NCBI GenBank assembly: GCA_938041625.1
Contig: CALISK010000047.1
Span: forward strand, 1 to 38,724
From: an uncultured Tenacibaculum sp.
GTDB lineage: Bacteria > Bacteroidota > Bacteroidia > Flavobacteriales > Flavobacteriaceae
Direction of reading: 5' to 3'
Length of the DNA: 38,724 bases
Shown: positions 37,588 through 38,724 of the stretch, piece after piece
How positions within the stretch are numbered: the stretch's first letter is position 1
How the letters are laid out: every line of letters starts with the position of its first letter
Made by a program: the position numbers and the translations under genes
The notes under the pieces: model-generated
Database searches by the model: none
The model's input: the letters and a program-made list of their open reading frames with translations, nothing else
What the model was told of the DNA's origin: nothing

Positions 37588-37596
37588 GATAAAAGC

Positions 37597-37640
37597 ATAA
37601 CAATTTCTTAGTTTTTTAAACTAAGGAATTGTTATATTTT
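37597..37640. terminator. probable (bi-directional) intrinsic terminator
   Basis: ATAACAATTTCTTAGTTTTTTAAACTAAGGAATTGTTATATTTTT stem-loop between convergent genes. Confidence 0.7.
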
Positions 37641-37701
37641 TATCAGAAGTTATTTAAAAAACACTCTTTTATTTTCATATATGAATTCTTTATACGGACT
37701 A

Positions 37702-37893
37702 TTAAAGCGCATGACAAAAACCACCTCCATCAATAAACTCACATTCATCATAGAGTGTTCCTGTACACTTACATCCTGACGGACAATAAACTCCACATAT
37801 TCGTATACTTATCATACCTCCACTAATTGATTTTTGTTCAGTACTAGTTAATACTGTTCCTAATTGTTGAATTTTGTTTATCCTTTTTTTAAT
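37702..37893 (-). CDS. double-glycine-leader Cys-rich peptide (bacteriocin/natural-product precursor-like), no canonical start codon
   Basis: Reverse strand, reading from ATT 37893: (I)KKRINKIQQLGTVLTSTEQKSISGG|MISIRICGVYCPSGCKCTGTLYDECEFIDGGGFCHAL*. Leader LGxxLxxxEQKSIsGG is the Bacteroidota GG-leader pattern; 6 Cys in the core; frame open to TAA at 37930-37932 with no ATG/GTG/TTG upstream of the GG. Confidence 0.6.
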   Translation of the reverse strand: MKKRINKIQQLGTVLTSTEQKSISGGMISIRICGVYCPSGCKCTGTLYDECEFIDGGGFCHAL

Positions 37894-38188
37894 TTTAGAT
37901 GGGTTAATTAAATAATATCTATATAGATATTAATTCGAATTGTTAATTTAAAACAAAAAGAATATTCAACCAATTATTAAAGTTAATTTATCTTTCAAAT
38001 CTTTTATTTTCAATAGATTATTCTTTCATTTTATTTAGTATTTTTAATGTAGCTAAATATCATTGGTAGAAAAAAGCTTAAAAAATTGTAATGATATTTT
38101 TCATTCTTTCGACCAAGTTATTATTATGTAATATAAATTACTTTTAATAAAATAAGTAAATACCAAATAAACTATTAATACATATAAA

Positions 38189-38724
38189 ATGAGCACAATT
38201 AGACTAGGTGATGAAGCACCAAATTTTACAGCAATAACTACGGAGGGAAACATTAATTTTCATGAGTGGTTAGGAAATGATTGGGGAATTTTATTTTCAC
38301 ACCCTGCTGACTATACACCAGTATGTACAACTGAACTAGGTACTGTTGCAAAATACAAATCGGAATTTGACAAAAGAAATGTTAAGGTTGTAGCATTAAG
38401 TGTAGATGGATTAGAATCACATAATGGTTGGATAAAAGACATTAACCAAACACAAAATACAGAGGTTAACTTTCCTATTATCGCAGATGAAGATAAAAAA
38501 GTAGCAATGTTATACGATATGATTCACCCAAATGCAGACAATAAGCTAACTGTAAGATCTGTATTTATTATTGACCCTAACAAAAAAATAAAATTAATTA
38601 TTGTTTACCCTGCTTCTACTGGTAGAAATTTTGATGAATTATTAAGAGTTATAGATTCATTACAGCTTACTGCATATCATAAAGTTGCAACACCTGCTAA
38701 TTGGAATAATGGAGACGATTGCGT
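38189..38724 (+). CDS. 1-Cys peroxiredoxin (Prdx6-like), truncated by window end
   Basis: MSTIRLGDEAPNFTAITTEGNINFHEWLGNDWGILFSHPADYTPVCTTELG...VAMLYDMIHPNADNKLTVRSVFIIDPNKKIKLIIVYPASTGRNFDELLRVIDSLQLT; PxDxTPVCTTE active site. Confidence 0.95.
   Translation, partial: MSTIRLGDEAPNFTAITTEGNINFHEWLGNDWGILFSHPADYTPVCTTELGTVAKYKSEFDKRNVKVVALSVDGLESHNGWIKDINQTQNTEVNFPIIADEDKKVAMLYDMIHPNADNKLTVRSVFIIDPNKKIKLIIVYPASTGRNFDELLRVIDSLQLTAYHKVATPANWNNGDDC

Follow-up and report, generated by a model that had tools for sequence, protein, structure and literature searches.

The peptide frame and its missing start

The minus strand of the window (the whole 38,724 nt stretch of DNA analysed here, from a draft genome of an uncultured Tenacibaculum sp., G000) carries a short frame that encodes a double-glycine leader and a Cys-rich core; from the upstream stop to the GG it contains neither ATG nor GTG nor TTG. 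This raises the question of whether the gene has lost its start codon, begins at an unusual one or was never a gene. The features of the region are listed in Table 1. Re-reading of the minus strand confirmed the frame as it had been described, with its placement, its GG leader and its 37-residue, six-Cys core. It is bounded upstream by TAA at 37930-37932, and its translation is YLYRYYLINPSKIKKRINKIQQLGTVLTSTEQKSISGG followed by MISIRICGVYCPSGCKCTGTLYDECEFIDGGGFCHAL; read toward the GG it gives ...KIKKRINKIQQLGTVLTSTEQKSISGG and then the core. The earliest ATG in frame is codon 1 of the core (37813-37815). The ATT and the ATA that the preliminary description proposed as candidate starts are at the positions it gave.

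Table 1. Features of the peptide locus and its surroundings (positions in the window)
Feature	Position	Strand	Remark
Precursor-holding open frame, stop to stop	37702..37929	-	75 codons plus stop
AGG at the family start-codon position	37882..37884	-	ATG in the G012 and G186 homologues
Double-glycine leader, 23 residues, (x)INKIQQLGTVLTSTEQKSISGG	37816..37884	-	Leader profile E 2.4e-8, positions 2-23 of 23
Core, 37 residues, six Cys	37705..37815	-	18 positions invariant across three species
Stop codon TAA	37702..37704	-	Conserved in G012
ATT, candidate start in the preliminary description	37891..37893	-	In G012 too, upstream of ATG
ATA, candidate start in the preliminary description; leader codon 2	37879..37881	-	ATA (Ile) in G012 too
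Convergent neighbour, predicted lipoprotein, 316 aa	36637..37587	+	No Pfam hit; same neighbour in G012
Divergent neighbour, peroxiredoxin (AhpC/TSA + 1-cysPrx_C)	38189..38722	+	Cut by window end; same in G012
Strong hairpin between peptide frame and lipoprotein gene	37588..37644	-	Fold z-score -10.2

A search of Pfam and NCBIfam with the frame gave no hits. The best match of the core in a PDB profile search had an E value of 0.16, and an AlphaFold model of the core (two sequences; pLDDT 66, pTM 0.36) was too poor for a fold search. Upstream of the frame there are only loose matches to a Bacteroidetes-type promoter, which are not informative.

Homologues and the inherited start codon

The nearest relative of G000 in the genus is G012, a MAG of an uncultured Tenacibaculum. 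It carries an orthologue at the same locus, between the same convergent lipoprotein-like and divergent peroxiredoxin genes. The orthologue is 88% identical, has retained the six Cys as well as the GG and the stop codon, and reads ATG at the position where the window has AGG (MINKIQQLGAVLTSTEQKSISGG). There is a third homologue in G186, the core of which is 49% identical to the window core and which has ATG at the same start position. When the three cores are aligned, the six Cys and 18 of 37 positions are invariant. A core profile run against 168 congeners matched the copies in the window, G012 and G186 only (E 4e-24 to 1e-25). Across these congeners and 400 genomes of the family, the one match beyond the known three was a fragment with stops (E 9.5e-4), and a contig scan of genomes for further orthologues returned the G012 record only. 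Findings that would have spoken against a precursor, namely a lack of homologues, an unrelated frame at this place or extra disabling mutations in relatives, were looked for and none was seen.

The preliminary description had favoured ATT or ATA as the start, and had asked whether orthologues have ATG at the position of the ATT. They do not: the ATG of the homologues sits three codons downstream, at the position of the window's AGG, and in G012 the ATT is unchanged. ATT was therefore ruled out as the inherited start. The inherited start is the codon that reads AGG in the window; both homologues and nearly all paralogues have ATG at this position, and the changed base directly follows a run of seven A. 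The stretch upstream of the gene is identical at 272 of 303 bases between the window and G012. Because the ATT of G012 precedes a normal ATG within this well-conserved stretch, its conservation is silent on whether initiation occurs there.

We compared the peptide in the window and G012 for signs of selection, as had been proposed. The values were dN 0.060 and dS 0.179, giving a dN/dS of about 0.33. With the start codon excluded, the leader has one non-synonymous and no synonymous change, and the core has seven and six, respectively. G186 was too distant to polarise the amino-acid changes and was dropped for this purpose. The dS lies in the range of four neighbouring genes (0.09-0.22), so the peptide locus is a plain orthologue. 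In a neutral simulation with 14 changes, 3% of the outcomes kept all Cys, the GG and the stop with at most eight amino-acid changes (P = 0.03). This suggests purifying selection on the peptide during most of the time since G000 and G012 split, and the constraint measured may come mostly from the time before the start was lost.

The hairpin between the peptide frame and the lipoprotein gene is also present in G012 (fold z-score -4.2 there), in which one base pair is altered on both sides, U-A to C-G, as judged by eye. It is terminator-like, and would serve both convergent genes in both directions. Only 3 of the 168 congeners have the lipoprotein gene itself, among them both members of the peptide-bearing pair.

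A family of double-glycine leaders in Tenacibaculum

A leader profile was built from 22 leaders, with the 23-residue consensus MKKsILNLGKxLNKxEQKxINGG (position 4 also given as x). The window leader matches it with an E value of 2.4e-8 and has the double-glycine pattern of C39/PCAT-exported peptides, in which hydrophobic and acidic residues are conserved in their spacing ahead of the GG. The profile match and the homologues together uphold the earlier reading of a GG-leader, Cys-rich precursor of the C39-exporter type with leader and core intact. On sequence grounds, the window frame is a homologue of C39-exported double-glycine peptides, a known kind, without a usable start codon.

The search for other peptides with the same leader in the genome, which had also been suggested, found 41 leaders in G000; there are 53 in G012 and 12 in G186, although these counts are not independent events because many G000 and G012 leaders are mutually orthologous. 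Among sampled congeners, 51 of 168 match the profile, and the best genomes in that scan have at least 52 leaders. In a draw from the whole family, matches were found in 34 of 400 genomes and 26 of 237 genera. ATG stands at the first profile position in 89 of the 106 leaders catalogued in G000, G012 and G186 and within six codons in 11 more, which leaves six with none, the window copy included. The cores of the 106 most often have four Cys (59 members), followed by six (16), five (15) and eight (5). None of the family members scanned reached a Pfam or NCBIfam cut-off. As they fall below every curated model tested, most of them are probably annotated as hypothetical or not annotated at all. None of the papers covered by a literature search described this leader family in Tenacibaculum.

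The preliminary description had called the precursor an orphan, with no exporter or modification gene in the window. As far as tested this is correct for the window, where the 21 proteins scanned with Pfam included neither a C39 peptidase nor an ABC exporter nor HlyD (nine ORFs of at least 80 aa lay outside the scan), but it does not hold for the genus. In G003, the genes between which leaders are found encode a C39-VKOR-thioredoxin protein of 529 residues, a C39-ABC exporter and an HlyD adaptor. G186 has a C39-ABC/HlyD operon of this kind, in which HlyD is directly followed by the homologue of the window core. On contig C74 of G012 there are 15 leaders, together with HlyD and the end of the ABC gene. 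The matching contig of G000, C233, holds eight leaders and ends before HlyD. In the search of the window genome for C39 exporters, which had been called for, G000 showed a C39-VKOR gene, as a fragment at the edge of contig C311; HlyD and a full C39-ABC gene were not found in this assembly, which is about 70% complete.

In the loci L038 (6358-7944) and L065 (2-1045), C39 is fused to VKOR, and in the full-length copy also to thioredoxin; the fusion accompanies the exporter operon. In the VKOR fusions, C39 is matched only from profile position 22-26 onward, and the domain thus lacks its beginning.

These arrangements point to the way in which a member of the family would work. The C39-peptidase ABC exporter would cut the 23-residue leader after the GG during export and release a short core, usually with four, six or eight Cys. 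Disulfide bonds in the core would then probably be formed by the operon's C39-VKOR-thioredoxin protein, a fusion that fits such a step. The likely role of the peptides is that of a bacteriocin-like toxin or a signal.

Start loss in other members of the family

Start codons were surveyed in 162 leader frames from several genomes, and an in-frame ATG was present in the stretch scanned for 152 of them. In five, the A-run directly downstream of the ATG has changed by one base, so that ATG and leader no longer share a frame. These are two members on G012 contig C74 (L068, near 12321 and 15705), one on G012 contig C21 (L119, at 38709), one on G012 contig C29 (L069, at 3206) and L041:19431. The lengths of the A-runs in the five are 8, 8, 10, 7 (after ATGTT) and 5; in-frame members have A-runs of at most 7. 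One further frame (L040:13059), in the 99% complete genome G027, has AAG for ATG, and its core is truncated. The remaining four frames had been counted as having no ATG, but one is present nearer to the leader and they are not silenced.

The five out-of-frame members show that silencing at the start recurs. There is also a mirror image of the window case: in the G012 member at L068:12321-12383 the start is out of frame and the GG is changed to GR, whereas its G000 orthologue (contig C233; L054:10311-10379) is in frame and has an almost identical core. Different members are thus silenced in different species. A further leader relic in G000, L112 (contig C273, 3157-3219), has an in-frame TAA. 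The pattern of start loss fits the birth and death of members of a large family, and a switch is possible; the frame changes at A-runs could likewise be a possible switch or simple decay.

Explanations for the window copy

The preliminary description had left the choice between a recently silenced precursor and one with a non-canonical start. We keep both readings in view and prefer recent start loss, as the homologues have ATG. In our judgement the window copy, a member of the Tenacibaculum family of C39-exported peptides, has probably lost its start recently and is most likely silenced. With AGG in place of ATG, the precursor would most likely no longer be made, or be made in traces only. 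The loss would be recent because leader, core and stop are otherwise intact. The same intactness would be expected if the AGG were an error of sequencing, assembly or strain mixing, the organism having ATG and a normal gene. This deserves some weight, although we think it unlikely. The G000 assembly is an incomplete draft of metagenome type (426 contigs), so that a single wrong base is possible, and the base in question comes directly after the run of seven A. However, the change is a substitution and not an error in homopolymer length, and unusable starts occur elsewhere in the family, even in the nearly complete G027. We are more doubtful that the gene is live, with low output from a near-cognate start at the ATA or the ATT. 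The leader and core are kept, the ATT is conserved in G012, and the ATA (codon 2) is the position of the ATG in seven other catalogued members; initiation there would shorten the leader by one residue, to the length found in members with a start at +1 (MKKLLIIG, MKNLLSIG). Against this, none of the 106 catalogued members was seen to rely on a start of this kind, members that lack an in-frame ATG close by appear to be disabled, and the conservation of the ATT is accounted for by the overall identity of the upstream stretch. ATA and ATT starts are, moreover, generally very weak in bacteria.

Two further explanations fare worse. A leaderless product could be made from the ATG at core codon 1, which is in frame, the first of the frame and present in G012 too; the peptide would then stay in the cell or leave by another route. 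The G186 core begins with Phe, so this Met is not conserved in the family, and the intact GG leader of G012, with its ATG, argues for export with the leader as the normal route, which makes the leaderless product very improbable. The chance that the frame merely resembles a leader peptide is close to nil. It is short, lies in A+T-rich intergenic DNA and has no usable start, but the loose leader regular expression that matches once in the window had no match in 200 random windows with the window's dinucleotide composition (Markov-1). Moreover, its orthologue and the third homologue keep all Cys, and on this evidence from the sequences the frame is not a chance one.

Recent start loss, the reading that we prefer, makes the window copy a clear example, open to checking, of how a short gene for a secreted peptide, of the sort that gene callers miss, loses its start codon. 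Beyond this one gene, it points to a family of peptides that roughly one in three sampled species of Tenacibaculum carries, with as many as about 50 members in one genome. Both fish pathogens and bacteria of marine surfaces belong to this genus. Start silencing of different members in different species would offer a testable system for the gain, loss or switching of toxins or signals. We consider it speculative, and rather improbable, that these bacteria hold a large and scattered arsenal of disulfide peptides, exported by a small number of C39 transporters, whose members are toggled at the start, mostly by A-run slippage and here by a point change. If such switching were real, silent copies with intact cores would be a standing reserve and not dead genes.

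Comparison with known systems

The leader model NF047798 (leader_Chryseo) of NCBIfam, named for Chryseobacterium bacteriocin-like proteins, matches 4 of 30 members of the Tenacibaculum family weakly. The best of these has an E value of 0.056, which is far from family level, and the window frame does not match. The peptides share with PCAT substrates (class II bacteriocins and microcins) the double-glycine leader and, in the relatives' operon, the C39-ABC and HlyD genes, but at cut-off their cores match no bacteriocin family in Pfam or NCBIfam, and no gene for immunity was identified.

The bacteroidetocins, which are class IIf bacteriocins (Coyne et al., 2019; PMC6671954), are also found in Bacteroidota and also have a short GG leader for a C39-type ABC exporter and a Cys-bearing core of about 40 residues. 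Their locus consists of genes for the peptide, a thiol oxidoreductase, C39-ABC and a five-TM protein; the relatives' operon has C39-VKOR-thioredoxin and C39-ABC, and the VKOR-thioredoxin fusion parallels the thiol oxidoreductase. Killing has been shown for the bacteroidetocins, whereas the Tenacibaculum peptides are known here from genes alone. The bacteroidetocin leader has 15-16 residues in contrast with 23 in the Tenacibaculum family, which adds an HlyD adaptor and the fusion of C39 to VKOR-thioredoxin. Finally, the bacteroidetocins have one peptide per four-gene locus, whereas in Tenacibaculum there are tens per genome, many of them far from any exporter.
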